Assembly: GCA_019454045.1 (NCBI GenBank)
Contig: SKCR01007779.1
Location: forward strand, 124,001-188,000
Source: Zanthoxylum bungeanum
Taxonomy: Eukaryota > Streptophyta > Magnoliopsida > Sapindales > Rutaceae
Length of the DNA: 64,000 nt
Direction: 5' to 3'
Under the pieces are notes generated by a model. It saw only the letters and a program-made list of their open reading frames with translations, was not told the DNA's origin and did no database searches. The position numbers and the translations under genes were made by a program. Within the stretch, counting starts at the first letter, position 1; each line of letters opens with the position of its first letter. Below are positions 17,594 to 44,686 of this stretch, one piece after another.

Positions 17594-17611
17594 TGGCGCC
17601 GTTGCCGGGGA
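17594..17611 (+). promoter_or_regulatory. primer binding site, tRNA-Asp type (B, unit 2)
   Basis: The sequence and spacing are the same as in unit 1: TGGCGCCGTTGCCGGGGA, 6 bases after the LTR. Confidence 0.9.
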
Positions 17612-20240: not shown

Positions 20241-21692
20241 TGATAAGTGTGGTTTATACCCACTTATTATGGTATTCTCAGTTTATTATTTTGTTATAAT
20301 TCGAGATATTTAAATGTATTTTATAATTTATTTTATATTTTATTTGTAGGAGCATTAATACATAGATCATGGAATAATTGCACGTGTTTTGGGAACTTCC
20401 GGGAACACAGGACGAGTACAGGAGCTTAGGTGCCATGGCCCCACAAACCCCATACAAATTCCAGGGGAATAGGCGCCACGACGCCCATTATTATCAATGG
20501 CGCCATCATGCCCATTATTATCAATGGCGTCAAGGCGCCATCATGACCATTATTAAGGGCGCCATGACGCCTCAACATTTTGAGTAAACTGGCGCCGTGG
20601 CGCCAGTTAAATTAAATAAACAGGCGCCACGAAGCCTTCCCAAAACACAAACCCATACATTTTCCCGGAAGTTCAGCGTCCCGGCGCCCACTTACTGCAA
20701 TGATCCGGAAGAAAACTTACACGTTCCAGGATTCAATTTTTAGGGTTTTCAATAATCCTAATGCTCCCCAAAGACTCCCAGCCTCAACTATAAATATAAC
20801 ATTACATTCAACACTCAAAGGGAGGCTAATACACTGCGCAAAACCAGAATTAAATATTTTTAGAGATCCAATGAGAGGATTGAAGAGCGACAAGAGAGAC
20901 AAGGCTGTAATATCCGGAGAGGAAGAGATTCAATTCGGGTTTTTATCTTCTTATTTCTTTCTTAAAACTCTAATGATTTCCATTAAATTCATGGCTTGAT
21001 TATTTATTGTTTTATCTTTTGTCATGAATTTACTCCTTAATTTTGGAGAACTATTGTAATCTATGCTCAACCTTGTATTTTATTTATCAATTTTGTTATG
21101 AAGTTTTATTGATTTATTTATATTCTTTTGAGTTTAATTGCTTCTTGATTGATGGCCACAATTTGAGATGATGAATGTTTAGAATCTATCACTCAAGAGA
21201 GGGGATTTCGAATAGATCTAGAGAATATAGCCTAGGATTTTATAGAGTTCGAGAGAATCTGATTCCTTTGAAGTCGTTAACATAGAATCACAAATCGTAA
21301 TGAGTTATTAACTATTGGATTTTTATAGAGATATCGAAGTCTATAGTTGATAATATTTTCACTCGGCACTCGAGAGAGGGAGTGAATATTTTAGGATCTT
21401 GACTTATAAATAATATAACTGAACAAAGATTAATTGGCATAACAAATACATAGGCGACAGCTAGGTGAAATCAGGATCCAGAATCTCTATAGTATTAGTT
21501 CCTCCTATTTTATTATTTGTATATTTATCTATTATAAATCTTTATTATTTATCGTCTAAATAAAGTTAGGATTATCAATTGTAGTACTTAGTGCGAGTTA
21601 ACGCAATCCCTGTGGGTTCGACACTCTTTCACTGATTTATACTAAAACTTGACACCGTACACTTGCGGTACGATATAAAAATATCACAAACA
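20241..21692 (+). repeat. element B LTR 3
   Basis: 1452 bp, TGATAAGTGTGG to ATCACAAACA, with a TATA box at 20789-20795. It is followed directly by the GTAAT duplication and the rest of the A LTR. Confidence 0.92.
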
Positions 21693-22123: not shown

Positions 22124-23700
22124 ATGAGATGAACCAGAAGCTTTGAAATCCATCTGCGTTATCCCAGAGATTGAAAGAACCATCAGACAATTGAGAAGGG
22201 AAAGACGAGAAGGTCAAAAAGCACTGATTAACATGTAACCTGAACCTTTGGAGGTTGCACCGCCAAATCCCATACAAGACAGAACTATTCTGATAGTTGA
22301 TGGTTTCATTTCATGTATTGTACTTCCTCCCCTACCAGCAAATGCATGTGACATCAAAACATGCATTCAGATGATACATCAATCAGTTCGGTTTGGGGGG
22401 AATGCAACAGAAGATCTTAATATCTACATCAGTAACTTCCTGGAAGTTTGCGGCATATTCAATTACAATTGAGCGGCATAAGAAGCAATTAGACTGCGTG
22501 TTTTCCTATATTCCTTGAAAGACAAAGCTAATGCTTGACTACATTTACTACCAGCAGGTTCCATTACAACTTGGAACACTCTAGCCACCAAATTTCTTGC
22601 AAAGTAATTTCCACCAGCCAGAACTGTAAAGCTGAGGAATGACATTACATCCTTTGTACAACATGACCCAGAATCTCTTTGTGAAGCTTGGGAAAGATAC
22701 AAGGAGTTGCTCAGAAAATATCCTCACCATGAAATAGCAAAGTGGATACAAGTCCAAACCTTCTATAATGGACTTTCTGGATTGATGAGAACTACAATCG
22801 ATGCTGCTGCTGAAAGAGGTTTAATGGCAAAAGGAGAAGATCAGGCATGTGACTTAATTGAAGAAATGGCCAACAACAATTCTTTGTGGCCAACAGAAAG
22901 GAGCATGATCCCACGAATAACAGGAATTTATAAAGTTGGAGCCAACACATCAATGAATGCCAAGCTCGATCAGATATGCAAACTCATGGAAACTCTTAGC
23001 ATGAAGGTTAATGTTGTATCCACAAGTTTACCATGTGGAGGAGCACCAGAGACAGAGTCAAATAACTTTCATGATGAGACGGTGAACTATGTCACCAACT
23101 TTGACAGATAGATGAACAATCCATATTCCAATACCTACAATCCAGGGTGGATAGATCATCCCAATTTCACATGGAGCAATAATGCAGGGCAAAGAAATAA
23201 TCCACCATCAGGATTCCAACAACAGAACAAAGGCCAGAAGTATGAGAATAAGCCAGGAATAGAAGAAGTGTTGGTCCACTTGAAAAAGCTAGAAGAAAAA
23301 ATGATGCTCAAGCAGCAAAATATGATGCTATATTTCAAGCCCAATCAGCATTGAATCAAAGCCTAACTGCTTCTATAAAGACACTGGAAAATCAAATAGG
23401 ACAACTGGCCAATGCTCAGAGTTATAGACCGTAAGGTACCCTTCCTAGCAACACATAACCAAATCCAAGGAACATGTGGAATGAGCAATGTCATGTCATC
23501 ACTTTGAAAAGCGGTACTGAAATCAACAAAGATGTTGGAGTCAAGGTAACTGTTGAGGAAGTTCCAAAAGAAAGCAGCAAAGTAGAGCCACAAATGGAGG
23601 AAGAGAAGCAAAAGAAAATGATCGAGAAAGAATCACTCCACCTCCACCTTCTCCACAGCGTCTCCAGAAAAATAAACTAGACAAATAATTTGCTCGATTC
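22124..23700 (+). pseudogene. element A Gag, internal region 1 (heavily broken)
   Basis: The start is ATG at 22124, matching the intact start of the second copy at 29308, but the third codon is already TGA. Fragments in several frames show the Athila-type Gag core: PLPANACDIKTCIQMIHQSVRFGGNATED, KWIQVQTFYNGLSGLMRTT, DQACDLIEEMANNNSLWP and YSNTYNPGW. Gag would form the virus-like particle. At least five stops or shifts separate the parts. Confidence 0.85.
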
Positions 23701-24230: not shown

Positions 24231-24800
24231 GGGTACATGACTAAGAAGTGACATTCAATGTTTTCAAATTCATGGAATTCCCGAATGATGAAAAAGAATG
24301 AGGAATGTTTCAGATTTGATGTGATAAATGGTACCATTCAGAACTTCGATGCAATGCAAAGTCCCACTGACAAACATAAAACATGTCATCTACCTGTGGA
24401 GCTTGAAAATAAAGCGTGCTGCGTACTGAAGAAGTTAAATCTTGATTTACAAGAAATGAAGAGAAACGATTCCACCAACTCAATGAATTGAAGGAATTTC
24501 ACATGCATCCTTTTAAGAATGCCAAACTGTACAAAGAAAAAGAAAATGCAAAGAGAGACATGATGAGAAGTTAATACGGATACAATTGGAACCGGTGCGG
24601 CGGGTATTTTTCAACAAATCAAGTTGAAACTCTTCCCTGGGAAGCTAAAATCAAGGTGGTCAGGTCCATTCTTAATCACCCAAGTTTTACTAGATAGAAT
24701 CATGAGTTACATGATCCTAACTCTAATAAAACATTCAAATTTAAAAGCAAGCGTGTCAAACACTACTAGGGAGAATCATTTAAGCGACAAAAAGAAAATG
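24231..24800 (+). pseudogene. pol linker fused to integrase C-terminal tail, internal region 1
   Basis: After the protease the frame gives EVTFNVFKFMEFPND, the linker that normally precedes reverse transcriptase in Athila elements. It then passes at once to [19 protein letters not shown] and KLKSRWSGPFLITQV, which belong to the end of integrase. Reverse transcriptase, RNase H and the integrase core are absent. The same junction is seen at 41195-41734 and, on the minus strand, at 34320-34910, so the deletion predates this copy. Frameshifts occur within the tail. Confidence 0.8.
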
Positions 24801-24960: not shown

Positions 24961-25515
24961 TGATGAAAGAAGTTCTCACAAATCTTCATAAGTAATTTCC
25001 TTCTTTCCCTCAAAACTCTCTGATGAAAGTCTACAAAGCTCGCATGGAACGAATGAGACTACTGATGATCAAAAGTATTCCTAATGACATTCGTTAGATT
25101 ATTGAAGCACGAGTCTGATTGACAGGTGAGTCATCTGACTTTTTTTTTTCATATCTGTCTGGTTTAGGAAGAAGCACCTATGCTAAGAAAAGAAGAGCTA
25201 GGAGATTAGGTGTTTGCTATAAATATGTACGCATGACATGTAATACTCGTTGTCGTTATTTAGGAATGGTGTCTGATAACCGCGAAGATAAAATTAAATT
25301 CATTAGGGATGACATATCATTGACTCTTAACTAATATTTGTGATTTGTTTTGTTATTTTCTTTTATTTTCTCCTATAAGATCCAGACTTTTTGACTTTCA
25401 CGATTTATTTTACTGTTTAGCTAATAATTGTCATTTGGCAGGTACTGTGCTATTATTACTCACCCCTTTTCAGGTTCTATAAATTCAGCTTTTTATTGCA
25501 CTCTTGAAGACATCC
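24961..25515 (+). pseudogene. unknown accessory ORF, internal region 1 (deleted and broken)
   Basis: This is a damaged copy of the ORF that is open at 41927-42721. Fragments include LMKVYKARMERMRL, YLSGLGRSTYAKKRRARRLG and DNREDKIKFIRDDIS. It lacks the part after IRD that the other copies have (ETHPSGYV to RKLDGKL) and joins ISLTLN to the T-rich segment before the FDFHDLF tail. No family is recognised. Confidence 0.7.
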
Positions 25516-25548: not shown

Positions 25549-26192
25549 ATGGAAGCAACTTCAAGAAGATGAACATCTGTGTCTTTTGCGGTACTAGTGT
25601 GGTTCTAAACCAGAATTTGTTGAGGCATCACATGAATTGGGTCGAGTCACAGTTGAAAGGAATATGCACTTATTATATGGCGGTGGCAATCTTGGATTAA
25701 TGGGGATCATTTCAAGGGCCGTACAGGAAGGAGGTAGTCAAGTTCTGGGAATATCCCAAAACCTTTAGTGGAGGCGAATCTTATAGGATCATCAAACGGA
25801 TATGAATTCATTGTGCTAGGTATGTCTGAATGACTTGTGGAAATGATTAACAGTTTTGATGCTTTTATTGCTTTACTAGGTGGCTTGGGCACAATGGAGG
25901 AAATTTTTACAATGCTATCTTGGGCGATTTTGAACATACACCAGAAACCAATTGGATTGTTTAACATTGATGAATTTTATGATTTTCTTTGTGTGTTTCT
26001 TGATGATGCTCGGAGAAATGAGTTCTTGTCAAAACTTATAAAAGATATCTTATTCACTGCAGAACTGCCAATGATTTAATTGACCAATTTTTAGCCTTTG
26101 AACCACAAATTGACCATATCATTTCCAAGATAAACTGGTCCTATAATGATCGTGGTAAGAAGCGTCGGATAAATCTGGATCTTAACCTTTAA
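25549..26192 (+). pseudogene. captured LOG-type cytokinin-activating enzyme gene, copy 1
   Basis: The captured gene starts at ATG 25549 and ends at TAA 26190-26192. NICVFCGTSV is followed by a shift, then recognisable family text continues in other frames through the YGGGNLGLMGIISRAVQEGG stretch. From 25837 one frame is open: FIALLGGLGTMEEIF, where the family motif PGGxGTxxE has lost its proline, then NIHQKPIGLFNIDEFYDFL. The end shows GKKRRINLDLNL. The family releases free cytokinin bases from nucleoside monophosphates in the cytosol. The copy is intronless and inactive, with several shifts and stops. Confidence 0.85.
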
Positions 26193-27420
26193 TTTTCTTT
26201 TTAGACGTAGAATAACAGCTAACCATGTACGATCCTCTAAACTTTCTTCTACTTTTTTAGACATTGGGGACAATGTCTTAATTAGGTTTGAGGGAAGGGA
26301 ATAGTTGGTAAGTATCTTATTTTTTATTTTTTTTCGTTGTGTTGTTTTTAGTAAAAAAATTTCAAAAAAAAATTCCAAAAAACTAAATCATTTAAAAAAA
26401 ATAAAAAATATTTTGTGTTTTTAATTTGACTAATCAGGTGAAATTGGTATGAGATAGCTGAGTAAGGAATTTCCACTCCTGAGACGTATCTCAACCTATT
26501 TCGTAACAAGTCGTGAATTCTCCATAATACTGACTAAATTGGATCTTCATATGCTCAGTTGACAAGTATTATCAACATGCATGGTAACATACAACCATGA
26601 GTTGTAATTGAAAAGTTTATAATATTCAGTGCTCTAGTTTAATTAGAGGAAGCATCCAAAAAAAGCGATGGAATAAAAAAATATAAAGAAAAATTAAACA
26701 TATGAGATCTGAGTAATTAAGTCCGTAGGGGTGTTTTAACACCTAGTGCCTTAAAGCCAACTGGCTTAGGAGTCATTGGCCCAAAGCTCGCTACATGGAT
26801 TGAAGATGTCGTAAATAAGTAAAAGAAAAAAAAAGATATTTGAAATCCGAGTTATTAAGTCTGTAAGGGTATCTTAACACCTAGTGCCCTAAAGCCAACT
26901 GTCCCAAAGCTGGCTACATGGATTGAAGATGTTGTAAAAAAAAAAAGAAAAAAAAAAAAAATCCATTGCTAAAAAATATGTGAATTCTAATATAACTTTA
27001 GGAAAAAAATATTACTCTCTTTTAAACTATACTTATGAATATTGTGGGCACAATGATTTGATTAATACCTTGTTGGTTGTGTATATGGAGAATGATAAAA
27101 ATAATTAGAGAATTTACTTATTTGGTAATTTAGAAAGAAAGAAAACAATTCTTAACTTGGATAAGAGTTTCACTTGTATAGTCACTAACTTGTTTGATCT
27201 TTTTATTTTTGTGTGCATTTGATGTTTGTGGGTATCGTCGTTGCAAGCCTTCACGAGACTACAACTCGTCCACTAGGGACACCTAGGGGTTTAAAGGCTT
27301 GTTGCATACGCTAAATACAACCATGATCCCTACGAAAGTGGCTTAGTTTAATTTAGTTTTAGTTATTTATTTTATTTTATTTTCTTGTTTTGCTCGAGGA
27401 CTAGCAAAATTTTAGGTTGT
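26193..27420 (+). other. element A 3' untranslated region, internal region 1
   Basis: It holds the palindrome ACATTGGGGACAATGT (26261-26276), an internal polypurine tract (26283-26299), two copies of an about 115-bp repeat containing CCTAGTGCC...AAAGCCAACTGGC (near 26705-26815 and 26840-26945) and the 120-bp block shared with element B (27222-27348). The terminal polypurine tract is interrupted at GTTAGGTT/GTTCC near 27419. No gene is seen. Confidence 0.75.
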
Positions 27421-29176: not shown

Positions 29177-29182
29177 AGTTTT

Positions 29183-29200
29183 TGGCGCCGTTGCTGGGGA
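29183..29200 (+). promoter_or_regulatory. primer binding site, tRNA-Asp type (A, internal region 2)
   Basis: TGGCGCCGTTGCTGGGGA has one mismatch to the tRNA-Asp complement and lies 6 bases after the middle LTR. Confidence 0.88.
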
Positions 29201-29307
29201 CTTATTTATCTTTCACTATTAATTTTGGGGTTAGATACATTACTTGTGTCTAATTTATTTTTACTTATTATTTTTGTTTTCTTCTGTTTCAGGTTCTCGG
29301 ACACTAC

Positions 29308-29504
29308 ATGAGACGAACCAGAAGCTTTGAAATCCGTCCGTTTGACCCAGAGATTGAAAGAACCATCAGACAGTTGAGAAGGGAAAGACTAGAAGGTCAA
29401 GAAGCACTGATTAACATGGAACCTGAACCTTTGGAGGTTGCACCACCAATTCCCATTCGAGACAGAACTATTCCGTTGGTTGATGGTTTTATTTCATGTA
29501 TTGT
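29308..29504 (+). pseudogene. element A Gag, internal region 2, N-terminal part
   Basis: The ATG at 29308 opens MRRTRSFEIRPFDPEIERTI, then LRRERLEGQEALINMEPEP and DGFISCIV. The frame is cut after the isoleucine/valine codons by insertion of element C at the target ATTGT (29500-29504). It continues at 39287. Confidence 0.88.
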
Positions 29505-31533
29505 TGACCGGCGTAAACACACACGTATAACGCAAGCGCACGTATCGTTCAAGTAGTATAAAAATATCGATCCCACGAGGACTTAATATCTAATCTATTA
29601 ATTTTATGAAGTCAAATGATTACTAGTATCTAACAGGTTGTTTGATTGATTTGAAATGGTGACGATTCTAAATTTAAAAACAAGTAAATAAAATTGTTCG
29701 AAAGTAGGTTTTAAGAAAATTCAATATTAAAAACTATCTAGGGTTGTGATTTCTTCCAATATCATTTTAAAGATGAAGTGATTATTTTATGTTTGTGTAA
29801 TAAATCGGTTTACTAACCTGGAACACTAAATTATGCAAAAGCCTCTGTCGATGGTCAGACGCAAATACCCAGTTTAACCCAATTGAACCATATGTCTATG
29901 TCAACCAAATTATCTGGATTCATTAAGTTTAAGTTCCAATTATGGCTACCCCCGCCCGACAGGTATATGTCTATCCTGTAAGGAAATCTATTAAAGGGTT
30001 ATCTATCCTCAAGGAAGATCGTGGGCTATTAAGTCTAAGGCTGAAACCTAAAATCCCTATGTCTAGTTCATTTTAGATTTACCACATCAATCTTATTGGT
30101 GATCAGACAACAAAAAGCATTAAGCTTAAGACTTAATAAGTAAACCTTTAAATTACCCAAACTATAATTTAACCCTTTATAAACTGGTGATATTGGATTT
30201 CATCACAACCCCAGATAATTGGCTTAGTTACGACACATATTTATGGGTAGTAAAAAAAACTTAAATAAAATAAAAGACATAAAGTAAAATACTGAAAATT
30301 AAATGCTGAAAAGTAAATGCTGAAAGTAAATGCTGAAATTAAATACTGAAAATTAAATGCTGAAAAGTAAATGCTGAAAGTAAATTGCTAAAAAGTAAAT
30401 TGCTGAAAAGTAAATAAAGTAAAATTACAATAAAAGAAAATGCTAAGGTAAAAGGATCCACTTTTATTACTTCTATTTTAGATATCTCCCTTAATATAAT
30501 ATATTAACTTTGCATGATAATTACCAACCAGCCATATAGGCGGTATCCAGATTAAGTCAAATTAATAATAATTACCAACCGACCAATATGGCGGTATCCT
30601 CGTTAAGTCAGGTTTTAACTAGTTTATATATTATAATTAAGGGAAATTAATCTAAATATTAGTAATAAAAGTTTTACCTTTTACCCCAGCAAAGGGGAGT
30701 TACCTCCTCATTACTGAAAAGTAAAAACTGAAAATTAAATAAAGAAAAGTACTGTGCGTAAAAGTAAATTGCGGAAAGTAAAAATGAAAAGTAAAGAAAA
30801 GAAAGTGCGAAAACGAAAATTAATTACTGAAAGCTGTAAATAAACAAACAAGATACAATCTTCTTAGTATTCTTAAGGAATTCCTTAGAAGAAAGTATGA
30901 ATTTTACAAATGAAATGACTTGGTATTTATAGGCAAAATTTTGCCTCCATCAAATCAATTATTAATTGCTCCACTAATTGTTCCAGCAAATCCATTATTA
31001 ATTGCTCCACTAATCTCTTATCATTTTTGGTGATGATTTGATGATTTTTATTATTTTTTTATTAATTTATTTTTTTGCTTTGAAAATGATTGAATGTGAC
31101 TTTAATAATTACACACTACACACTTCTGGATGGTTCATCAATTTCGGGCATGAAATCTTCCGAATTAGAAATTATTTTGTATTTCAAAGTTGTAGATCTT
31201 TGAGTCTTCTTTAATCTGGAACTTGAATCAGCTCAATCCGATATCGGAGTAAAAAGTTATGCCCAAAATACGACAGATGCGCAAAACTGGAATTTCCAAA
31301 ACTGCACTTCGTCAAAACGCCCTTTCAAGTTTCCAATCTTCAAAATTAAAATATCAAGTCCAATAATTGCCCTTATTTGACCCATATTTCATCCTAAATG
31401 ATTTCATTGAGACCCGATATTATTTTATTTGCAAAATAAACTAAAACACATCAAAACGTTCGTCAAACCCGAGAAACTAAACAAAATATTAAGTTAAAGG
31501 GGCGGTAAATATTGATATATTTTCCGCTCATCA
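29505..31533 (-). repeat. element C 3' LTR
   Basis: On the plus strand it runs from TGACCGGCG to CGCTCATCA, 2029 bp. On the minus strand it starts TGATGAGCGGAAAATATATC like the A LTRs. The TATA box (plus ATTTATA) is at 30925-30931. It contains a run of AAGTAAATGCTGAA-type short repeats (30280-30420) and two GGCGGTATCC minisatellite units (30520-30600). Confidence 0.9.
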
Positions 31534-32740
31534 CACCCCCAAACCTAACATTTTGCTAGTCCTCGAGCAAAACAACAAAATAAAAATAAAATTAAACTAA
31601 GCCACTTTCGTAGGGATCACGGTTGCATTTAGCATTTGCAACAAGCCTTTAAACCCCTAGGTGTCCCTAGTGGACGAGTTGTAGTCTCGTGAGGGCTTAC
31701 AGCAACGATACCCACAAACGTTTTACAAAAGTAAAAAGATAATAAAACTAATGTACACAAAAGCAAAAAGACAAGAGAAAATAGAATAAAGAAGTTAGTG
31801 ACTAATCAGGTGAAACTTCTACTCCTAGTCAATAGTTTTTTTGTTTCATTCTAAATTACAGAATAAGTAAATTCTCCGATTATTTTTACCATTCTTCATA
31901 TACACAGCCAACAAAATATTAAACAACTCATTTTTGCCCACAACAGTCATAAGTGCAGTTGATAAGAGAGTAATATTTTTGTCCTAAAGTTCTATCAGAT
32001 TTAACACCTTTTGGTAGCAATGGAATAATTTTTCTCATTTTTCTGATTTTTTCTTTGATTTTTTTTTCTATTTTTTATTTATATACAATATCTTCAATCT
32101 ATGTAGCGAGTGTTGGGTCGGTGGCTCCCAAAAACCAGTTGGCTTTAGGGCACTAGGTGTCAAAACACCCTTACAGACTTAATAACTCGGATCTCAGACG
32201 TTTTTTTTTTTTTTTTTTTTTACTCCATTGCTTTTTGAGATGCTTCCTCCAATTAAACTAGAGCACTGAATATTACAAACTTTTCAATTTTAGCTCATGT
32301 CCGTATGTTACCATGTATGTTGATAATATATGTCAACTGAGCATATGAAGATTCATTTTAGTCAATTTTATGGAGAATTTACAAATTAAATAATTCAAAA
32401 GGAAATAAACAAAAATTAATTTGTTTCGAATTAGGTTGAGATACGTCTCAGGAGTGGAAACTCCTTACTCAGCTATCTCTTACCAATTTCACTTTTTTAG
32501 TCAAAATAAAAATACAAAAACACAAAATATTTTTTGTAATTTTTGAAAAAATTTTCAATTTTTTTGTATTTTTCGAAAAATTTTGAACTAAAAATAGAAA
32601 CAACACACAACTAAAAAAATCAAGGTACTAATCAACTAATTCTCTCCCCCAAACCTAAATGAGACATTGTCCCCAATGTCTTAAACAGTAGTAGAATAGT
32701 TTAGAAGATAATACCTGGTTAGCTGAAATTCTACAGGAGA
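31534..32740 (-). other. element C 3' untranslated region with two polypurine tracts
   Basis: On the minus strand it holds the palindrome GACATTGGGGACAATGTC and an internal polypurine tract (within 32643-32682), one copy of the AAAGCCAACTGG repeat (32080-32200, where A has two), the 120-bp block shared with B (31597-31720) and the terminal polypurine tract GTTAGGTTTGGGGGTG next to the LTR (31534-31549). No gene is seen. Confidence 0.8.
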
Positions 32741-33391
32741 TTAAAGGTTAAGATCCAGATTAACACGACGCCTCTTACCACGATCATCCTCGGACCAATT
32801 TATCTTTGAAAGGACATGGTCAATTTGTGGTTCATAGGCTAAGAGTTGGTCTATTAGATCCGGAGCAGTTCTGGCAGTAAAGAAGAGTTCTTTTAAAGGT
32901 TTTGATATGAACCCATTTGTCTGGGCATCATCAAGAAACATACAAAGAAAATCATAAAATCCATCAATGTTAAACAGCCCAATTGGTTTCTGGTGTATGT
33001 TCAGGTTCGCCCAAGATAGTACTATAAAAATTTCCTCCAATGTGCCCAAGCCACCTGGCAAAGCAATAAAAGCATCAGCACGGTTAATCATTTCTACCAG
33101 TCGTTCAGACATACCTGGCACCATCAGTTCCTCTTCGTTTGATGATCCAATAGATTTGCCTCTGCCAAGGGTTTTGGGATGATTCCTAAAACATTACTAC
33201 CTCCTTCATGTACGGCTTTTGAAATGATCCCTATAAGTCCAAGATTGCCTCCGCCATATATTAAGTGCATATTCCTTGCAGCTAAGACTCGACCCAATTC
33301 CTGTGCTGCTTCTATGTATTGTGGTTTAGTACCACATACTACCGCAAAACACACAACATTTTTTTCAAACTCGTCTTGAAGTGGCTTCCAT
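32741..33391 (-). pseudogene. captured LOG-type cytokinin-activating enzyme gene, copy 2 (best preserved)
   Basis: The minus-strand gene runs from the expected ATG at 33391 to TAA at 32741. The family order is complete: CVFCGS, then YIEAAQELGRVLA, LIYGGGNLGLIGIISKAVHEG (GGG at about 33255-33244), VLGIIPKPLAEA, MSERLVEMI with the substrate-site arginine, FIALPGGLGTLEE (33058-33032, motif PGGxGTxxE intact), HQKPIGLFNIDGFYDFL and DRGKRRRVNLDLNL. Breaks: a TGA near 33366, a shift near 33330 and a one-base loss near 33148. No introns are present, while plant LOG genes have several (family knowledge). LOG removes ribose 5-phosphate from cytokinin nucleotides to give active cytokinin. Confidence 0.9.
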
Positions 33392-33419: not shown

Positions 33420-34194
33420 GATGTCTTCAAAAGTGTATTGACGAGCTGAATTTATAGTACCTGAAAAGGGTGAGTAAAAATAGCACAAGTATCTTCCAAA
33501 GGACGATTAGTAACAAAATAGTAAAATAGATCGTGATATGGTCAAAAAGGTCTGGATCCTGTCGGAGAAAATAAAAGAAAACAACAAAACAAATCAAAAT
33601 ATTAGGAAAAGACAAAGAGATATAATATGTACAAGAATTAGAGCTTGATTAACGTCTATGCGTCAAGGACAAGTTTCCCATCCAATTTTCTTATAAATTG
33701 GCAAACAGGGTCTTTTTGAGTCAGATTCCCAAGACTTAACTGTTGTCTTTCTTTTTGAAATTGTGTATGTAATCTGCGAAAGGCTATGTGAACATATCCA
33801 CTGGGATGCGTCTCAAGAGTCGAAGATATATCATCTAAAGACTCCTTACTCAAGCCATCCCTAATGAATTTAATTTTGTCTTCGCGATTATTAGACACCA
33901 TTCCTAAAGAACGACAACGAGTATTGCAATTCCAACGTGCATATTTGTAACAAACACCCATTTGCTTAGCTCTTCGTTTCTTTGCATATGTGCTTCTTCC
34001 AAAACCAGGCAGATGTGAAATAAAAGAGTCTGAAGACTCACCTGCCAATCGGACTCGTGCTTCAATTACCCAACGAATGTCATTGGGAACACCATGGATC
34101 GTCAGTAACCTCATCCGTTCCAAGCGAGCTTTGTAAACTTTCATTAGAGATTTTTGAGGGAGAGAAGGAAATTACTTGTGAAGATTTGCGAGAG
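33420..34194 (-). pseudogene. unknown accessory ORF in element C
   Basis: This is the minus-strand counterpart of the ORF at 41927-42721. The expected ATG is at about 34193, but its eleventh codon is TAA. The frame is open from 34144 to 33656 (about 162 residues): MKVYKARLERMRLLTIHGVPNDIRWVIEARVRLAGESSDS, GRSTYAKKRRA, a cysteine group CYKYARWNCNTRC, IKFIRDGLSKESLDD and FIRKLDGKLV. A stop follows, then a T-rich stretch ending CTCCGACAG at about 33558, then a tail with FTHPFSGTINSAR. No known domain is recognised. Position between pol and 3' LTR matches that of Athila env-like ORFs. Confidence 0.75.
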
Positions 34195-34284
34195 CTTCTT
34201 CCATCTTGAAATGTCTTAACCTGCAAAAAAACTAAAACACAAAAATTAAATCACACCAAATCACAATATATACAAAAATTGCAT

Positions 34285-34324: not shown

Positions 34325-34936
34325 CAAACTTGACTTCTCGAACGTTAAGCTGGATCTGAAAGTGTAACACTTTTTTTTGTCGCTCAAATGATTCTCCCCA
34401 GTAGTGCTTGGCACGCTTGTTTTTAACCTTGAAAGTTTTGTTAGCGTCAGGATCATGTATCTCAACGGCTTTATTTGGTAAAACTTTGGTGATCACAAAT
34501 GGACCTGACCACCGTGATTTTGGCTTCCATGGGAAGAATTTCACCCTGATTTGTTTAACAGTACCTTCTACCCTGGTTCCAGTTGTATGCGCACTAACTT
34601 CTCATCATGTCTTTTCTTGCCGTTTTCTTTGTACAATTTGGCATCTTCAAAGGGCTGATTGTGAAATTCCTCCAATTCGTTGAGCTGGTGGAACTTTTTC
34701 TCTTCTGTTGCTTGTAGAGCAAGAATTGGCTCTTTCAGTGCAAAAGATGCTTTATCTTTAGGCTCCACAGGCAATTGACATGTTTTAAGTTTGTCAGTAG
34801 ACTTTGTCTTTCATCAGAGTTCTGAATGGTACTGTGTATCACATCGAGTTTGAAACATTCCTCCTTTTTTCATCATCTGGGAAATTCATGGCCTTGAAAA
34901 CATTGAATGTTACTTCTTGGTCCTGTACCCTCATGG
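34320..34936 (-). pseudogene. pol linker fused to integrase C-terminal tail, element C
   Basis: Downstream of the protease the minus strand reads RVQDQEVTFNVFKAM, then LPVEPKDKASFALKEPILALQ, FHQLNELEEFHNQPFED and KSRWSGPFVITKVLP. This is the pre-RT linker joined to the integrase end, the same junction as in A. Two frame breaks lie between 34936 and 34544. Integrase tail sequences of this type may touch chromatin, but without the core the product cannot integrate DNA. Confidence 0.8.
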
Positions 34937-35755
34937 TTAGTTCTCCTTTTTGTACATCAATAATGGTTCACCTGTAGCCAAGAACGGTCTCCCGAGGATG
35001 ATTGGCACGTCTGCGTCTTCCTCCATATCAAGGACAATAAAATCTGCTGGGAAAATGAATTTGTCAACCTTGACCAGCACATCCTCAACTACGCCTCTTG
35101 GAAATACGAGCGTTCTATCAGCAAGTTGCAGTGAGACTGAAGTTGGCATTGTTTCTCCAATCTGTAATTTCCTGAAAATAGAAAAAGGCATCAAGTTAAC
35201 ACTAGCACCTAAATCACATAAAGCCTTACCAAAGTTATGTTCTCCTATGACGCAAGGAACAGTGAAACTGCCAGGATCTTTCAACTTCGGGGGAAGTTTC
35301 CTCTGAATGATAGCACTGCATTCTTCTGATAATGCTACTGTCTCGTAATCTCCCAATTTCCGCTTTCGTGAAAGAATATCTTTCATGAATTTGGCATAGG
35401 TGGGCATTTGTTCCAACGCTTCTGCAAATGGAATGTTGATATGCAGCTTTTTGAAGATTTCCAGGAACCGAGAAAACTGCTTGCCCAATTTGTTCTTCTG
35501 AAGACGTTGAGGAAAAGGTGGAGGTGGAGTGATCTGTTCTTTTTCCTTTGCTTCTTTTTCCTCCATCTGTTGCTTTGTTTCTTTTGGAACTTCCTCAGCA
35601 GTTGTTTTGGCTCCAACATCTTTGTTGATTTCAGTACCGCTTTTTAACATGATGGCATGACATTGTTCCTTCCCCATGTTTCTTGCATTTGGCTCAGTGT
35701 TGCTAGGAAGGGTACCTGGCGGTCTGTAACTCTGAGCATTTGCTAGTTGTCCCAT
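34937..35755 (-). CDS. Gag C-terminus plus aspartic protease, element C (open frame)
   Basis: One frame of 272 codons is uninterrupted. It runs from MGQLANAQSYRPPGTLPSNT and KEQCHAIMLKSGTEINKD (Gag-protease linker) through LEIFKKLHINIPFAEALEQM, LSEECSAIIQRKLPPKLKDPG, ALCDLGASVNLMPFS (active-site loop), LQLADRTLVFPRGVVEDVLVK and [13 protein letters not shown] (second protease hallmark). It would be translated as part of a longer polyprotein; the methionine is only the first in the open stretch. The protease would cut Gag. This is the only uninterrupted protease of the Athila-like family in the window. The stop at 34937 occurs where the linker follows. Confidence 0.8.
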   Translation of the reverse strand: MGQLANAQSYRPPGTLPSNTEPNARNMGKEQCHAIMLKSGTEINKDVGAKTTAEEVPKETKQQMEEKEAKEKEQITPPPPFPQRLQKNKLGKQFSRFLEIFKKLHINIPFAEALEQMPTYAKFMKDILSRKRKLGDYETVALSEECSAIIQRKLPPKLKDPGSFTVPCVIGEHNFGKALCDLGASVNLMPFSIFRKLQIGETMPTSVSLQLADRTLVFPRGVVEDVLVKVDKFIFPADFIVLDMEEDADVPIILGRPFLATGEPLLMYKKEN

Positions 35756-35796: not shown

Positions 35797-37018
35797 TTAA
35801 TGCTGATTGGATTGAAACATAGCATCATATCTTGCTGCTTGAGAGTCGTGTTTTGCTTCTAACTTTTTCAAGTGGGTCAACACTTCTGTTATTCCTGGTT
35901 CATTTGCCTGCTCCTGGCTTTTGTTCTGTTGTTGGAATTCAGGTGGTGGATAGTTTTGCTGTTGGCCTGAATTGTTGCTCCATGAAAAATTGGGATGATT
36001 CCTCCACCTTGGGTTGTAGGTGTTGGAATATGGATTGTTCCCATGTCTGTTGAAATTGTTGACAAAATTCACTGTCTCTTCCTGCTGAACTGGTTCTGGT
36101 GCTCCTTTATATGATGAACTTGTGGATCCACCATTAACCTTCATGTTAAGAGTTTCCAGATTTTTGCAAATCATATCCAGCTTGACATTCAGTGATGTGT
36201 TGGCTTCAACTTCATAAATTCCTGTGATTCTTTGGATTATGCTCCTTTCTGTTGGCCATAAAGAATTATTGTTGGCCATTTCTTCAATTAAATCCCAAGC
36301 CTGATCTTCTCCTTTTGCCATTAGTGCTCCTCCAGCAGCAGCATCAATTGTGGTTCTCATTATTCCAGAAAGTCCATTATAGAATGTTTGGACTTGAAGC
36401 CATTTTGGAATCTCATGGTGAGGACATTTCCGGAGCAAATCTTTGTACCTTTCCCAAGCTTCGCAGAGGGATTCTGAATCTTGTTGTACAAAGGATGTGA
36501 TGTCATTCCTCAACTTTGCAGTTCTGGCGGTGGAAAGTATTTTGCAAGGAATTTGGTGGCTAGAGTGTTCCAAGTTGTGATGGAACCTGCTGGTAGTGAA
36601 TGTAGCCAAGCTTTAGCTCTGTCCTTCAAGGAGTATGGGAAAACTCGCAGTCTCATTGCTTCTTCTGATGCTCTGTTGTAGTTGAAAGTACCGCAAATTT
36701 CCAGGAAGTTACTGATGTGGGCATTAGGATCTTCAGTTGCATTCCCCCCGAACTGAACTGACTGCTGAATCATCTGAATGCATGTTTTGATGTCACACGC
36801 ATTTGCTGGTAAGGGAGGAAGTACAATACAGGAAATGAGTATGTCAACCACCGGAATGGTTCTGTCTCGAATGGGAATTGGTGGTGCAACCTCCAACGGT
36901 TCAGGTTCCATGTTGACTAAAGCTTCTTGGCCTTCTCGTCTTTCCCTTCTCAACTATCTAATGGTTCTTTCAATTCTGGGTCAAGCGATCGGAGTTCAAA
37001 GCTTCTGGTTCGTCTCAT
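35797..37018 (-). pseudogene. element C Gag (one main frameshift)
   Basis: The expected ATG is at 37018. The frame 36953-36510 has RREGQEALVNMEPEPLEVAP, DIKTCIQMIQQSVQFGGNAT and KDRAKAWLHSLPAGSITTWN. After a shift near 36560, the frame 36609-35797 has AKLRNDITSFVQQDSESLCE, WLQVQTFYNGLSGIMRTTID, DQAWDLIEEMANNNSLWPTE and NPYSNTYNPRWRNHPNFSW. This is the retrotransposon Gag core of Athila type. No zinc knuckle is seen. Gag forms the particle that packages element RNA. Confidence 0.88.
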
Positions 37019-37125
37019 ATAGTTTCTGAGAACCTGAAACACAAGAAAACAAAAACAATAAGTAAAAAGAAATTAGATACAAGTAACGTATCTAACCCCT
37101 AAATTAATAGTGAAAGATAAATAAG

Positions 37126-37143
37126 TCCCCGGCAACGGCGCCA
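37126..37143 (-). promoter_or_regulatory. primer binding site, tRNA-Asp type (C)
   Basis: On the minus strand TGGCGCCGTTGCCGGGGA is a perfect 18-base complement of the tRNA-Asp 3' end. It lies 6 bases inside the 5' LTR. Confidence 0.92.
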
Positions 37144-37149
37144 AAAACT

Positions 37150-39281
37150 TGACCAGCGTAAACACACACGTATAACACAAGCGCACGTATCGTTCAAGTA
37201 GTATAAAAATATCGATCCCACGAGGACTTAATATCAAATCTATTAATTTTATGAAGTCAAATGATTACTAGTATCTAACAGGTTGTTTGATTGATTTGAA
37301 ATGGTGACGATTCTAAATTTAAAAATAAGTAAATAAAATTGTTCGAAAGTAGGTTATAAGAAAATTCAATATTAAAAACTATCTAGGGTTGTGATTTCTT
37401 CCAATATCATTTTAAAGATGAAGTGGTTATTTTATATTTGTGTAATAAATCGGTTTACTAACCTGGAACACTAAATTATGCAAAAGCCTCTGTCGATGGT
37501 CAGACGCAAATACCCAGTTTAACCCAATTGAACCATATGTCTATGTCAACCAAATTATCTGGATTCATTAAGTTTAAGTTCCAATTATGGCTACCCCCGC
37601 CCGACAGGTATATGTCTATCCTGTAAGGAAATCTATTAAAGGGTTATCTATCCTCAAGGAAGATCGTGGGCTATTAAGTCTAAGGCAAAAACCTAAAATC
37701 CCTATGTCTAGTTCATTTTAGATTTACCACATCAATCTTATTGGTGATCAGACAACAAGAAGCATTAAGCTGAAGACTTAATAAGTAAACCTTTAAATTA
37801 CCCAAACTATAATTTAACCCTTGATAAACTGGTGATATTGGATTTCATCACAACCCCAGATAATTGGCTTAGTTACGACACATATTTACGGGTAGTAAAA
37901 AAAACTTAAATAAAATAAAAGACATAAAGTAAAATATTGAAAATTAAATGCTGAAAAGTAAATGCTGAAAGTAAATGCTGAAATTAAATACTGAAAATTA
38001 AATGCTGAAAAGTAAATGCTGAAAGTAAATTGCTAAAAAGTAATTGCTGAAAAGTAAATTGCTGAAAAGTAAATAAAGTAAAATTACAATAAAAGAAAAT
38101 GCTGAGGTAAAATGATCCACTTTTATTACTTCTATTTTAGATATCTCCCTTAATATAATATATTAACTTTGCATGATAATTACCAACCAGCCATATAGGC
38201 GGTATCCAGATTAAGTCAAATTAATAATTAATTACCAACCGACCAATCAGGCGGTATCCAGTTTAGTCAGGTTAAAACCAATTTAAATAATTACCAACCG
38301 ACCAACCGGTATGGCGGTACCTCATTAAGTCAGTTTTAACTAGTTTATATATTATAATTAAGGGAGATTAATCTAAATATTAGTAATAAAAGTTTTACCT
38401 TTTACCCCAGCAAAGGGGAGTTACCTCCTCATTACTGAAAAGTAAAAACTGAAAATTAAATAAAGAAAAGTACTGTGCGTAAAAGTAAATTGCGGAAAGT
38501 AAAAACTGAAAAGTAAAGAAAAGAAAGTGCGAAAACGAAAATTAATTACTGAAAGCTGTAAATAAACAAACAAGATACAATCTTCTTAGTATTCTTAAGG
38601 AATTCCTTAGAAGAAAATATGAATTTTACAAATGAAATGGCTTGGTATTTATAGGCAAAATTTTGCCTCCATCAAATCATCCACCAAATCAATTATTAAT
38701 TGCTCCACTAATTGCTCCACTAATTGTTCCACCAACCATCCATTATTAATTGCTCCACTAATCTCTTATCATGTTTGGTGATGATTTGATAAGTTTTATT
38801 ATTTTTTTATTAATTTATTTTTTTGCTTTGAAAATGATTGAAAGTGACTTTAATAATTACACACTACACACTTCTGGATGGTTCATCAATTTCGGGCATG
38901 AAATATTCAGAATTCGAAATTATTTTGTCTTTAAAAGTTGTAGATCTTTGAGTCTTCTTTAATCTGGAACTTGAATCAGCTCAATCCGATATCTGAGTAA
39001 AACGTTATGCCCAAAATACGACAGATGCGCAAAACTGGAATTTCCAAAACTGCACTTCGTCAAAACGCCCTTTCAAGTTTCCAATCTCCAAAATTAAAAT
39101 ATCAAGTCCAATAATTGCCCTTATTTGACCCATATTTCATCCTAAATGATTTCATTGAGACCCGATATTATTTTATCTGCAAAATAAACTAAAACACATC
39201 AAAACGTTCATCAAACCCGAGAAACTAAACAAAATATTAAGTTAAAGGGGCTGTAAATATTGATATATTTTCCGCTCTTCA
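37150..39281 (-). repeat. element C 5' LTR
   Basis: Plus strand TGACCAGCG to CGCTCTTCA, 2132 bp. It has the same features as the 3' LTR, with a TATA box at 38647-38653 and short AAGTAAATGCTGAA repeats (37925-38070). It has one more GGCGGTATCC minisatellite unit than the 3' LTR (38190-38330), which accounts for much of the length difference. It is followed by the ATTGT duplication. Confidence 0.9.
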
Positions 39282-39286
39282 ATTGT

Positions 39287-40625
39287 ACTTCCTCCCCTAC
39301 TAGCAAATACATGTGACATCAAAACATGCATTCAGATGATACAACAGTCAGTTCAGTTTGGGGGGAATGCAACTGAAGATCATAATGCCCACATTAGCAG
39401 CTTCCTGGAAGTTTGCGGCACATTCAATTACAACCGAGCGGTAGAAGAAGCAATGAGACTGCGTGTTTTCCTATATTACTTGAAAGACAGAGCTAAGGCT
39501 TGGCTACATTCACTACCAGCAGGTTCCATCACAACTTGGAACACTCTAGCCACCAAATTCCTTGTAAAGTACTTTCCACCAGCCAGAACTGCAAAGCTGA
39601 GGAATGACATTACATCCTTTGTACAACATGACTCAGAATCTCTCTGTGAAGCTTGGGAAAGATTTAAGGAGTTGCTCAGAAAATGTCCTCACCATGAAAT
39701 AACAAAGTGGCTACAAGTCCAAACCTTCTATAATGGATTTTCCGGATTGATGAGAACTACAATTGATGCTGATACGGAAGGAGCTTTAATGGCAAAAGAA
39801 AAAGATCAGACCTGGGACTTAATTGAAGAAATGACCAACAACAATTCTTTGTGGCCAACAGAAATGAGCATGATCCAATGAATAGCAGGAATTTATGAAG
39901 TTGGAGCCAACACAGTAATGAATGCCAAGCTCGATCAGATATGCAAACTTATGGAAACTTTTAGCATGAAGGTTAATGTTGTATCCACAAGTTTACCTTA
40001 TGGAGGAGCACCAGAGACAGAATCAAACAACCAACATGATGAGATAGTGAACTATGTCAGCAACTTTGACAGACATGGGAACAATCCATATTCCAATACC
40101 TACAATCCAGGGTGGAGGAATCATCCCAATTTCGCATGGAGCAACAATGCAGGGCAAATAAACAATCCACCACCAGGATTCCAACAACAGAACAAAAGGC
40201 CAGAAGTATGAGAATAAGCTAGGAATAGAAGAAGTGATGGTCTACTTGAAAAAGCTAGAAGAAAAAATGACGCTCAAGTAGCAAAATATGATGTTATATT
40301 TCAAGCCTAATCATCTTTGAATCAAAGCCTAACTGCTTATATAAACACACTGGAAAATCAAATAGGACAATTGGCTAATTGTCAGAGTTACAGACCGCAA
40401 GGTACCCTTCCTAGCAACACAGAACCAAATCTAAGGAATATGGGGAAAGAGCAATGTCATGCCATCACTCTGAAAAGCGGTACTGAAATCAACAAAGATG
40501 TTGGAGTCAAGGTAATTGTTGAGGAAGTTCCAATAGAAAGCAGCGAAGCAGAGCCACAGATAGATGAAAGAGAAGCAAAAGCAAATAATCGAGAAAGATT
40601 CACTCCACCTCCACTTTTTCCATAG
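39287..40625 (+). pseudogene. element A Gag, internal region 2, main part
   Basis: It continues the Gag cut at 29504: PPLLANTCDIKTCIQM-type text, then an open frame 39336-39881 with SVQFGGNATEDHNAHISSFL, KDRAKAWLHSLPAGSITTWN and TKWLQVQTFYNGFSGLMRTT. Stops follow near 39880 and 40210. A further open part (40317-40625) has ENQIGQLANCQSYRPQGTLP and KEQCHAITLKSGTEINKD. It is better preserved than internal region 1. Confidence 0.87.
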
Positions 40626-41194: not shown

Positions 41195-41734
41195 ATGAGG
41201 GTACAGGACCAAGAAGTGACATTCAATGTTTTCAAAGTCATGGAATTCCCGAATGACGAAAAGAATGAGGAATGTTTCAGACTTGATGTGATAAATGGCA
41301 CCATTCAGATGTCCGATGCAATGCAAAGTCCCACTGACAAACTTAAAGCATGCCATCTGCCTGTGGATCCTGAAGATAAAGCGTGCTACGCACTGAAGAA
41401 GTTAAATCTTGATTTACAAGCAACTGAAGAGAAACGATTCCACCAACTCAACGAATTAAAGGAATTTCACATACAACCTTTTGAGAATGCCAAACTGTAC
41501 AAAGAAATGGCCAAGAAGAGACATGATGAGAAATTAATGCAGATACAACTAGAACCGGGGCAGCGGGTATTGTTCAGTAAATCAAGGTTAAAACTCTTCC
41601 ATGGGAAGCTAAAATCAAGGTGGTCAGGTCCATTCTTAATCACCCAAGTTTTACCAGATAGAATTGTTACGTTACATGATCCTAACTCTAATAAAAGATT
41701 CAAAGTTAAAAGCAAGTGTGTCAAACACTACTGA
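41195..41734 (+). CDS. pol linker-integrase tail fusion ORF, internal region 2 (intact, 179 codons)
   Basis: This is one open frame from ATG 41195 to TGA 41734. Residues 1 to about 35 (MRVQDQEVTFNVFKVMEFPN) are the segment that precedes reverse transcriptase in Athila elements. From about residue 48 the text is the integrase end: LKACHLPVDPEDKACYALKK, FHQLNELKEFHIQPFENAKL, LEPGQRVLFSKSRLKLFHGK and LKSRWSGPFLITQVLP. Everything between is gone. The junction is the same as in element C and internal region 1, so this fusion was a heritable part of the family. It may once have been fused in frame to the protease. No function is known for such a fusion. Confidence 0.8.
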   Translation: MRVQDQEVTFNVFKVMEFPNDEKNEECFRLDVINGTIQMSDAMQSPTDKLKACHLPVDPEDKACYALKKLNLDLQATEEKRFHQLNELKEFHIQPFENAKLYKEMAKKRHDEKLMQIQLEPGQRVLFSKSRLKLFHGKLKSRWSGPFLITQVLPDRIVTLHDPNSNKRFKVKSKCVKHY

Positions 41735-41926: not shown

Positions 41927-42721
41927 ATGGAAGATGTTCTCGCAAATCTTCATAAGCAATTTCCTTCTCTCCCTCAAAACTCTCTGATGAAAGTCTACAA
42001 AGCTCACATGGAACGAATGAGACTACCGATGATCAAAGGTATTCCTAATGACATTCGTTGGATTATTGAAGCACGAGTCCGATTGGCAAGTGAGTCCTCT
42101 GACTCTTTTGTTTCATATCTCCCTAGTTTAGGAAGAAGTACCTATGCTAAGAAAAGTAGAGTTAAGAGATTAGATGTTTGCTATAAATGTGTACGCTTGA
42201 CATATAATACTCGTTGTCATTATTTCGGAATGGTGTCTGATAACTGTGAAGATAAAATTAAATTCATTAGGGATAATATGAGTAAGGAGTCTTTGAATGA
42301 TATATCATTGACTCTTGAGACGCATCCCAGTGGATATGTGTATCACGCAATTCACATGTTACATGCACAGTTTTGGAAAGAAAGACAACATTTAAGTCTT
42401 GGGAATCTGACTTTAAAAGATCATGTTTGCCAACTTATAAGAAAATTGGATGGGAAGCTTGTCCCTGGCGCATATATGTCAATCAAGCTGTTAGTTCTTG
42501 TAAATATTATTATCTCTTTGTCCTTAATTAATAATTGTGATTTATTTTGTTATTTTATTTTATTTTCTCCGACAGGATCCAAACATTTTGACTTTCACAA
42601 TATATTTGACTGTTTAGCTAATAATTATCATTTGGAAGGTACTGGTGCTATTATTACTCACCCTTTTTCAGGTTCTATAAATTCATCTCGTTATTGCACT
42701 CTTGAAGACATCCAGATTTGA
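41927..42721 (+). CDS. unknown accessory ORF, internal region 2 (open, 264 codons)
   Basis: The ATG at 41927 (MEDVLANLHKQFPSL) is matched by a candidate start in element C. The frame stays open to TGA at 42719-42721. Visible parts: a basic, cysteine-bearing region (GRSTYAKKSRVKRLDVCYKC to NTRC, roughly residues 75-100), a charged region with DKIKFIRDNMSKESLNDISL, RKLDGKLVPGA near 175-185, a strongly hydrophobic run (KLLVLVNIIISLSLI to FCYFILF, about 190-215) and a tail with GAIITHPFSGSINSSRY. The hydrophobic run could be a membrane segment, or an unspliced intron (GTAAATAT to CTCCGACAG). I recognise no family. The position fits an env-like ORF. Confidence 0.65.
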   Translation: MEDVLANLHKQFPSLPQNSLMKVYKAHMERMRLPMIKGIPNDIRWIIEARVRLASESSDSFVSYLPSLGRSTYAKKSRVKRLDVCYKCVRLTYNTRCHYFGMVSDNCEDKIKFIRDNMSKESLNDISLTLETHPSGYVYHAIHMLHAQFWKERQHLSLGNLTLKDHVCQLIRKLDGKLVPGAYMSIKLLVLVNIIISLSLINNCDLFCYFILFSPTGSKHFDFHNIFDCLANNYHLEGTGAIITHPFSGSINSSRYCTLEDIQI

Positions 42722-42741: not shown

Positions 42742-43396
42742 ATGAAAGCAACTTCAAGAAGACGAGTTGTTAACATCTGTGTCTTTTGCGGTACTAGTGT
42801 TGGTTGTAAACCAGAATTCGTTGAGGCATCACACGAATTGGGTCGAGTCATAGCCGAAAGGAATATGCACTTAGTATATGGCAGTGGGAATCTTAGATTA
42901 ATGGGGATCATTTCAAGGGCCGTATAGGAATGAGTAGTCAAGTTCTAGGAATCATCCCAAAACCTTTGGCAAATAGGAATCTTATAGGACCATCAAACGG
43001 AGATGAATGCATTGTGCCAAGTATGTCTGAACGACTTGTGGAAATGATGATTAACCGTGCCGATGCTTTATTATTTTACCATATGGCTTTGGCATAATAG
43101 AGGAAATTTTTACAGTGCTATCTTGGGCAAACTTGAACATACACCAGAAACCAATTGGACTGTTTAACATTGATGGATTTTATGATTTTCTTTTTGTGTT
43201 TCTTGATGATGCCCAGAGAAATGGGTTCGTGTCAAAACCTGTAAAAGATATCCTATTCACTGCCAGAACTGTCCATGATTTAATTGACCATTTTTTAGCA
43301 TTTGAACCACAAATTGACCATATCCTTTCCAAGATAAACTGGTCAGATAATGATCGTGGTAAGAAGCGTCGGATAAATCTGGATCTTAACCTTTAA
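42742..43396 (+). pseudogene. captured LOG-type cytokinin-activating enzyme gene, copy 3
   Basis: ATG 42742 opens MKATSRRRVVNICVFCGTSV, then FVEASHELGRVIAERNMHLV and YGSGNLRLMGIISRAV, where the family GGGNxG is changed to GSGN. A TAG at 42927-42929 ends the frame. Family text continues in other frames (VLGIIPKPLA, MSERLVEMM), but the PGGxGTxxE motif (about 43065-43105) is destroyed. The frame 43115-43396 is intact again: LSWANLNIHQKPIGLFNIDG, DILFTARTVHDLIDHFLAFE and DRGKKRRINLDLNL at the stop. It is inactive. Confidence 0.87.
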
Positions 43397-44686
43397 TTTT
43401 CTTTTTAAACGTAGAATACCAGCTAACCAGGTACGATCCTCTAAACTCTTCTTCTACTTTTTTAGACATTGGGGAGAATGTCTCAATTAGGTTTGGGGGA
43501 GGGGAATAGTTGATTAGTATCTTGTTTTTTTATTTTTTTTCGTTGTGTTATTTTTGCTTGGTTTTTAGTCAACAATTTTCAAAAAAAATATTCAAAAAAA
43601 TTAAAAAAATTAAAAAAAATAAAAAATATTTTGTGTTTTTAATTTGACTAAACAGGTGAAATTGGTGTGAGATAGCTGAGTAAGGAATTTCCACTCCTGA
43701 GACGTATCTCAACCTATTTCGTAACAAGTTAATTTTTGTTTATTTCCTTTTGAATTATTTAATTTGTGAATTCTCCATAATACTGACTAAATTGAATCTA
43801 AATATACTCAATAGACAAGTATTATCAACATGTATGGTAACATACAGCCATGAGTTGTAATTGAAAAGTTTGTAATATTCAGTGCTATAATTTAATTGGA
43901 GGAAGCATTTAAAAAAAATGATGGAATAAAAAGATAAAAAAATTAAACATCTGAGATCCGAGTAATTAAGTCTGTAGGGATGTTTTAACACCTAGTGCCC
44001 TAAAGCAAACTGGCTTGGGAGTCACTGGCCCAAAGCTCGCTATATGGATTGAAGATGTTGTAAATTAATAAAAGAAAAAAAAGTGATATCTGAAATCCCA
44101 GTTAGTAAGTCTGTAAGTGTATCTTAATACCTAGTGCCCCAAAGCCAACTGGCTTGGGAGTCATTATCACAAAGCTCGCTATATGGATTGAAGATATTGT
44201 AAAATAAATAAAAAAAAAAAAATCTATTGCTAAAAAAGATGTGAATTCTGATATAACTTTAGGACAAAAATATTACTCTCTTTTTAACTACACTTATGAA
44301 TATTGTGGGCACAATGATTTGATTAATACCTTGTTGGTTGTGTATATGTAGAATGGTAAAAATAATCAGAGAATTTACTTATTTGGTAATTTAGAAAGAA
44401 AGAAAATAATTCTTAACCTGGATAAGAGTTTCACTTGTTTAGTCATTAACTTGTTTGATCTTTTTATTTTTATATGCATTTGATGTTTGTGGGTATCGTG
44501 CTGCAAGCCCTAACGAGACTACAACTCATCCACTAGGGACACCTATGTGTTTAAAGGCTTGTTGCATACGTTAAATGCAACTGTGATCCCTACAAAAGTT
44601 ATTTAGTTTAATTTAGTTTCAGTTATTTATTTTATTTTATTTTGTTGTTTTGCTCGAGGACTACCAAAATGTTAGGTTTGAGGGTG
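43397..44686 (+). other. element A 3' untranslated region, internal region 2
   Basis: It holds the palindrome GACATTGGGGAGAATGTC (43465-43482), an internal polypurine tract with GGTTTGGGGGAGGGG (43490-43504), two copies of the AAAGC(C/A)AACTGGC repeat (near 43950-44060 and 44095-44205), the 120-bp block shared with B (44483-44608) and the terminal polypurine tract GTTAGGTTTGAGGGTG (44671-44686). No gene is seen. Confidence 0.8.

Follow-up and report, generated by a model that had tools for sequence, protein, structure and literature searches.

We found that a family of Athila-like LTR retrotransposons carries an intron-less gene of the LONELY GUY (LOG) type, and that this element-borne gene is under purifying selection, with dN/dS well under 1. 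The family was traced from a single 64,000-nucleotide stretch of DNA (hereafter the window) to the whole source genome. We consider it probable that the LOG protein provides cytokinin in the cells in which the element is transcribed, and that this favours transmission of the element. Transcription would start in the LTR, a spliced message would be produced through an acceptor upstream of LOG, and the protein, as predicted from its motifs and fold, would release free cytokinin. The hormone could then act on how the host cell grows or on its meristem identity and favour dividing or meristem cells, from which new copies would reach the offspring. A C-terminal tail is predicted to add nuclear location and corepressor binding, and an NABP-like partner protein perhaps dampens silencing or alters host transcription, as the cysteine-rich proteins of carlaviruses do.

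LOG copies in the window

Four LOG copies were located in the window, using one full-length relative as the tblastn query, and none of them forms an open gene. Copy 2, in element C (32741-33391, minus strand; tblastn 33391-32744), is by its sequence a certain member of the LOG family. Its open 3' part (127 residues, 32741-33124) matched the Pfam family Lysine_decarbox (PF03641, E 3e-28), its 5' part matched the SLOG family (PF18306, E 1.7e-8), and the closest solved structure was Arabidopsis At2g37210 (PDB 2a33, E 1.2e-29). These E-values, together with an empty reversed-decoy search of the genome, exclude chance for LOG in the window. The Pfam and structure matches thus bear out the original prediction that 32741-33391 is a LOG gene, and the best matches fell within the LOG/lysine-decarboxylase-like family. 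The motifs GGGNLG, MSER and PGGLGTLEE that had been reported for copy 2 are all there, but they are spread over more than one frame; the copy 2 gene is therefore frameshifted, and dead.

Copy 1 in element A (25549-26192, plus strand; tblastn 25571-26189) and copy 3 in element D (42742-43396, plus strand; tblastn 42742-43393) are broken, each matching in several frames. Copy 4 (46733-46988, plus strand; tblastn 46758-46955) is a C-terminal fragment with 68% in self-comparison with D, and lies beyond the 3' LTR of element D, inside a fourth, more diverged element remnant. The earlier placement of all four copies at one site in elements A, C and D therefore stands for copies 1-3 but not for copy 4.

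Structure of the LOG-carrying elements

The window contains three Athila-like elements, A and D on the plus strand and C on the minus strand, which share the order gag, protease region, integrase C-terminal remnant, NABP-like ORF, LOG, purine tract and LTR. In element C, LOG is enclosed by paired LTRs, a primer binding site and a polypurine tract, which identifies the unit as an LTR retrotransposon. Comparison of LTRs within the window placed the 5' LTR of element C, truncated at its outer end, at 37150-39281 (minus strand), and the part of its 3' LTR that aligns with it at 29505-31533 (minus strand), from where the LTR continues towards the purine tract. The pair differs by a K2P distance of 0.0205 over 2,028 aligned columns (29505-31533 against 37150-39281); at a substitution rate of 1.3e-8 per site and year, this gives an insertion age of ~0.8 million years. 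At their outer ends, elements A and D have been cut short or rearranged. After the 3' LTR of A, a primer binding site and leader continue and end at 29504 (29177-29505), where the 3' LTR of C meets them tail to tail, and the 5' LTR of C joins the internal region of D at 39281/39282.

The primer binding site of element C (37126-37143, minus strand) resembles the Athila type (tRNA-Asp), and membership of the Athila lineage is putative. The gag gene lies at 36232-36773 in element C (minus strand; Retrotrans_gag matches in ORFs 35797-36609 and 36510-36953), at 39336-39881 in element D (plus strand; an ORF matching Retrotrans_gag at E 2.6e-24) and, in broken form, at 22371-22910 in element A (plus strand; gag match). 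An ORF of element C with the protease region (34937-35755, minus strand) matched Asp_protease_2 with 18.3 bits, below the cut-off of 24.3. It is followed by an integrase C-terminal remnant (34401-34780, minus strand), before which reverse transcriptase (RT), RNase H and most of the integrase are missing. The same junction occurs at the remnants of element D (41351-41734, plus strand) and element A (24384-24766, plus strand). Since A, C and D can be aligned through one protease-integrase join, these parts were lost before the elements spread, and the three elements are consequently non-autonomous. This pol-deleted form, like the NABP-like gene and the C-terminal tail, was missing from the original prediction.

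Pattern searches placed the polypurine tract at 32642-32653 in element C (minus strand) and at 43492-43503 in element D (plus strand). Between LOG and the purine tract of element C lies a hairpin, AGACATTG-GGGA-CAATGTCT, with perfect 8-bp arms (32662-32681, minus strand). It recurs at 26259-26278, again just before the purine tract, and its pattern was seen in 17 of the 20 loci sampled from the genome; it may serve in plus-strand priming or in processing of the RNA 3' end. A 3' splice acceptor is predicted upstream of LOG in element C (33554-33564, minus strand) and element D (42570-42580, plus strand). This motif is present ~150-170 bases before LOG in 19 of the 20 loci. It ends in AG at 15 of them but has AT instead at 4, and at locus L028 its U-rich tract is gone; these exceptions count against the main reading. 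By eye, another acceptor-like site with a U-rich stretch, TTTCTTGTGTTTCAG/GTT, was noted between the primer binding site and gag of element C (37098-37148, minus strand). The 375-base leader of element C contains no donor-like GTAAG, GTGAG or GTATG.

Other elements were also noted in the window. An array in the order LTR, internal region, LTR, internal region, LTR spans 12017-21692 (12017-17587 against 16134-21692 at 98.6%), has the same primer binding site at 13485 and 17594 and gave no LOG match; it looks as if it arose by unequal LTR-LTR recombination. A distant Gypsy element occupies 61454-64000 (minus strand; integrase C-terminal match 38%, gag match 39%) and includes, by eye, an RNase H-like ORF at 63062-63424. 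The translated ORFs at 1010-4071 and 52618-55027 (minus strand) resemble, by eye, remnants of two Copia-type elements.

Abundance and forms of the element in the genome

The source genome (3.96 Gb, 51,709 contigs) was searched with the 127-residue open 3' part of copy 2. This gave 59,121 first-look LOG candidates, which are places not singly confirmed and may count one locus more than once. All of the best 150 that were scored matched (150/150), and 148 of these 150 best places had no internal stop, as judged by eye. The reversed query, used as a decoy, returned 11 candidates and 0 matches, so nearly all of the 59,121 candidates should be LOG-like. The gag query of the element gave 64,157 candidates, which may include other Athila-like families. 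For 6 of 150 listed gag places, the same strand carries a listed LOG place 3.1-3.7 kb further downstream, compared to 0.03 expected, with places copied by eye from the two listings. The genome-wide LOG matches, their shared architecture and the gag-LOG spacing uphold the earlier proposal that LOG was amplified with the element, and LOG adjoins these LTRs well beyond this one locus.

To describe the element forms, we followed the order of the plus-strand LOG rows and took 20 loci of 10 kb for which enough sequence lay upstream, omitting one eligible row (C39978). Ten of them are pol-deleted (L009, L010, L012, L013, L014, L016, L017, L021, L022 and L024), and four keep the pol span, ~2.8 kb from the protease region to the integrase end (L011, L015, L018 and L026). 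Of the latter, L026 shows Gag, RT, RNase H and then integrase (RVT_1, RNase H and rve domains), which is the Ty3/Gypsy order. One locus is partial (L020, with the integrase end and NABP and without a gag match), and three are LOG-only (L019, L025 and L027), consisting of LTR, primer binding site, an acidic ORF region and LOG, with no gag, protease, integrase or NABP match. The remaining two (L023 and L028) are unclassified, with nothing element-like beyond ~160-240 bases upstream of LOG. The acidic region of the LOG-only elements is rich in glutamine and glutamate (L019, 6577-7605; L025, 6568-7776; L027, 6631-7800), and the two ORFs searched, from L019 and L027, had no Pfam match.

The primer binding site pattern was found in 12 of the 20 loci. 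Where both patterns were found, the distance from primer binding site to purine tract is ~7.0 kb in pol-containing, ~4.5 kb in pol-deleted and ~2.65 kb in LOG-only elements. In 15 of the 20, LOG is preceded by NABP, and two NABP copies away from the target LOG (at L010 and L014) also adjoin a LOG. A further 20 loci, obtained with Arabidopsis LOG3 as the query, comprise 8 with NABP, 8 with a LOG-only body and 4 with neither. LOG thus occurs in pol-containing, pol-deleted and LOG-only forms, its presence in all 20 + 20 loci being by construction, since loci were picked by LOG. The gag-LOG spacing and the two NABP copies at L010 and L014 are evidence of the association that is not tied solely to this choice.

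A virus-type partner gene upstream of LOG

The NABP-like ORF of element C (33656-34204, minus strand; tblastn 34204-33659) has one stop near its start and matched Carla_C4 with 24.3 bits (cut-off 20.9) and Viral_NABP with 23.5 bits (cut-off 23). That of element D (41927-42475, plus strand; also found by tblastn) matched Viral_NABP with 26.1 bits and Carla_C4 with 19.8, below the cut-off of 20.9; element A retains a tblastn-detected remnant with residues 1-119 only (24963-25319, plus strand). We found 414 relatives at E <= 0.01, and the 120 listed include named proteins of Populus, Xanthoceras, Acer, Orobanche and Rhamnella. When diverse members were compared with the two families at E <= 0.01, 37 of 38 matched Carla_C4 and 35 of 38 matched Viral_NABP. 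In the Rhamnella protein P0240, integrase C-terminal sequence is joined directly, by eye, to an NABP-like protein, which indicates that the NABP-like gene belongs to an element. A PDB search with an NABP-like relative reached a best E of 0.2, and the structure model (mean pLDDT 59.9) was too poor for a fold search. From its sequence, nucleic-acid binding is predicted for the protein. In the parts of PMC12172455 covered, the viral relatives are described as silencing suppressors, one of them a transcription factor causing hyperplasia. Among the papers listed from the open-licence literature, none links the NABP-like protein with retrotransposons.

The LOG fold and its C-terminal tail

The last 17 codons of LOG copy 2 (32744-32794, minus strand) encode a basic patch followed by LDLNL, for which a function is predicted. 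LxLxL occurs within the last 12 residues of 89 of 120 listed element-type proteins, compared to 0 of 120 host LOG1/3/8-type proteins, and a basic cluster occurs within the last 25 residues of 108 of 120 and 1 of 120, respectively. The 31 of 120 without strict LxLxL comprise truncated proteins, close variants such as LDIDLNR, and a group with RRRLD at the end. We read the tail, as a prediction from sequence, as a nuclear signal joined to an EAR-type corepressor-binding motif. The model of the relative P0003 (mean pLDDT 84.6) is confident except at its ends, with the tail disordered, and its best match was Arabidopsis LOG 2a33 (TM 0.95 on target); element-type LOG is accordingly predicted to have the LOG fold.

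Two other readings involve the tail. We put forward as a tentative idea that the element carries a two-gene host-reprogramming kit, in which a virus-type NABP is combined with a nuclear, corepressor-recruiting LOG whose cytokinin steers host growth to the advantage of the spread of the element; the benefit from LOG would be large enough for it to be retained even in forms lacking gag and pol. A rather unlikely alternative is that the LOG fold is now a regulator: the basic LxLxL tail would take it to the nucleus, where a TOPLESS-type corepressor would be recruited or soaked up, and the hormone role would be secondary or lost. Such a role would agree with retention of the tail in the open genome copies (LxLxL in 20 of 22, four basic residues in a row in 21 of 22), with its slightly higher conservation (0.976 for the last 17 residues, compared to 0.954 for the body) and with its absence from 120/120 host LOG1/3/8-type proteins. 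However, the motif PGGxGTxxE, for which a mere scaffold would have no use, persists in all 22 open copies and in 62 of the 65 full-length element-type proteins.

Purifying selection on LOG

Twenty-two distinct full-length open LOG frames were obtained from 22 of 49 loci, some of which overlap. Across their 231 pairs, median dS was 0.167, dN 0.037 and dN/dS 0.22 (5-95% range 0.10-0.43), with no pair at or above 1, and choosing open frames may lower this ratio somewhat. A first set of 11 open frames (55 pairs) gave 0.28. Besides PGGxGTxxE, the open copies retain MSER (20/22) and GGGNLGLMG (17/22). Among the broken window copies, dN/dS was higher: LOG gave 0.41-0.70 (upper end of the A-D interval 1.26), NABP 0.36-1.28 (A-D at 1.28), gag 0.12-0.64 and protease 0.26-0.73, the estimates for the A-D pairs being wide.

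These ratios bear on the idea that the element acquired LOG once by chance and has since copied it as a passenger, without function for the element. Every copy in the window is broken even though the insertion of element C is recent, which counts against a functional LOG, and functionless captured gene pieces are common in plant elements. We nevertheless regard a passenger as improbable, given the low dN/dS and the conservation of both length and motifs: relatives of full length, often 217 residues, occur in contigs and in Populus, Paulownia and Reevesia, and LOG is kept in forms without gag and pol. The reading in which a selected LOG supplies cytokinin to the benefit of the element remains the one that we favour.

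Relation to host LOG genes

Host-like LOG exons were seen by eye at at least 14 listed places, with 77-94% identity over residues 23/24-71 of a 75-residue piece. One that was read is flanked by ...TTTTCAG/GTG and GAG/GTA, whereas the element LOG copies run unbroken through the same stretch. The lack of introns noted earlier is thereby confirmed, and it fits the proposed capture of a spliced host mRNA. Two places of 69% identity also span residues 1-75, so that some non-element LOGs may lack these introns.

The closest protein relatives are contig-derived (up to 85% identity), followed by Populus, Paulownia and Reevesia proteins, and 65 of the 120 listed have at least 205 residues. Populus predicted proteins named LOGL10 look like the element type by sequence, and the location of Populus relatives in elements is supported by PMC9289625. 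Three scans of viral contigs gave pattern matches, none of which was a relative by tblastn. When 26 element-type and 19 host LOG1/3/8-type proteins were placed in one tree, a 100/100 branch split the two sets; because element-type LOGs of several plants thus stand apart from host LOG1/3/8, the capture would be old. LOG is a normal plant family with host-like exons in this genome, but that ordinary host LOG genes merely happen to adjoin LTRs is hardly credible and was rejected on the same position in successive elements, the gag-LOG spacing, this tree split and the low identity to Arabidopsis LOG3 (47-50% in the best 150 places, compared to up to 94% for host-like exons).

Comparison with known systems

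If the enzyme works, a transposable element would make an active plant hormone inside its host, whereas gall-forming microbes do so from outside. Owing to the conserved tail, the virus-like partner and the LOG-only derivatives, the hormone idea can be tested by standard assays. There is also a warning for annotation, as nearly all of the 59,121 first-look LOG candidates would not be host cytokinin genes.

LTR elements carrying LOG are already known, so the idea itself is not new, and the original statement that no such element had been described does not hold: PMC9289625 (2022) reports a YgdH domain, tied to LONELY GUY, in LTR-retrotransposon consensuses of Citrus and Populus, and places this result 'in line with' Steinbauerova 2011. 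The first third of PMC7264820 makes no mention of LOG, and the terms lonely guy and lysine decarboxylase are absent from PMC11728184, YgdH and LONELY from PMC11963269, and LOG and cytokinin from PMC13317346. Neither the tail nor the LOG-NABP pair was found in the titles and abstract openings of the matching papers listed.

The Citrus and Populus elements share with those described here an LTR (Gypsy-type) structure with a LOG-type extra domain. That account gives the domain and the species, while the tail, the NABP-like partner, the LOG-only forms, selection and copy numbers come from the present analysis. Athila elements with extra ORFs (PMC7264820, PMC11728184) likewise carry sense ORFs between pol and the 3' LTR; those are env-like or of unknown function, whereas here they encode LOG and a nucleic-acid-binding protein of viral type. 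Through Carla_C4 and Viral_NABP, the ORF upstream of LOG resembles the carlavirus cysteine-rich or nucleic-acid-binding proteins (PMC12172455), but here it resides in a retrotransposon, its single members score weakly over at most 85 residues, and it is known from sequence alone. Uptake of cellular enzyme genes is shared with the DNA-methyltransferase retrotransposons (PMC5890265), which occur in dinoflagellates and charophytes and whose enzyme acts on DNA. Finally, Phalaenopsis Gypsy elements with an AlkB m6A demethylase (PMC9289625) also maintain an extra enzyme ORF over many copies; their product is an RNA demethylase active in vitro, whereas the enzyme here is a hormone enzyme predicted from sequence.
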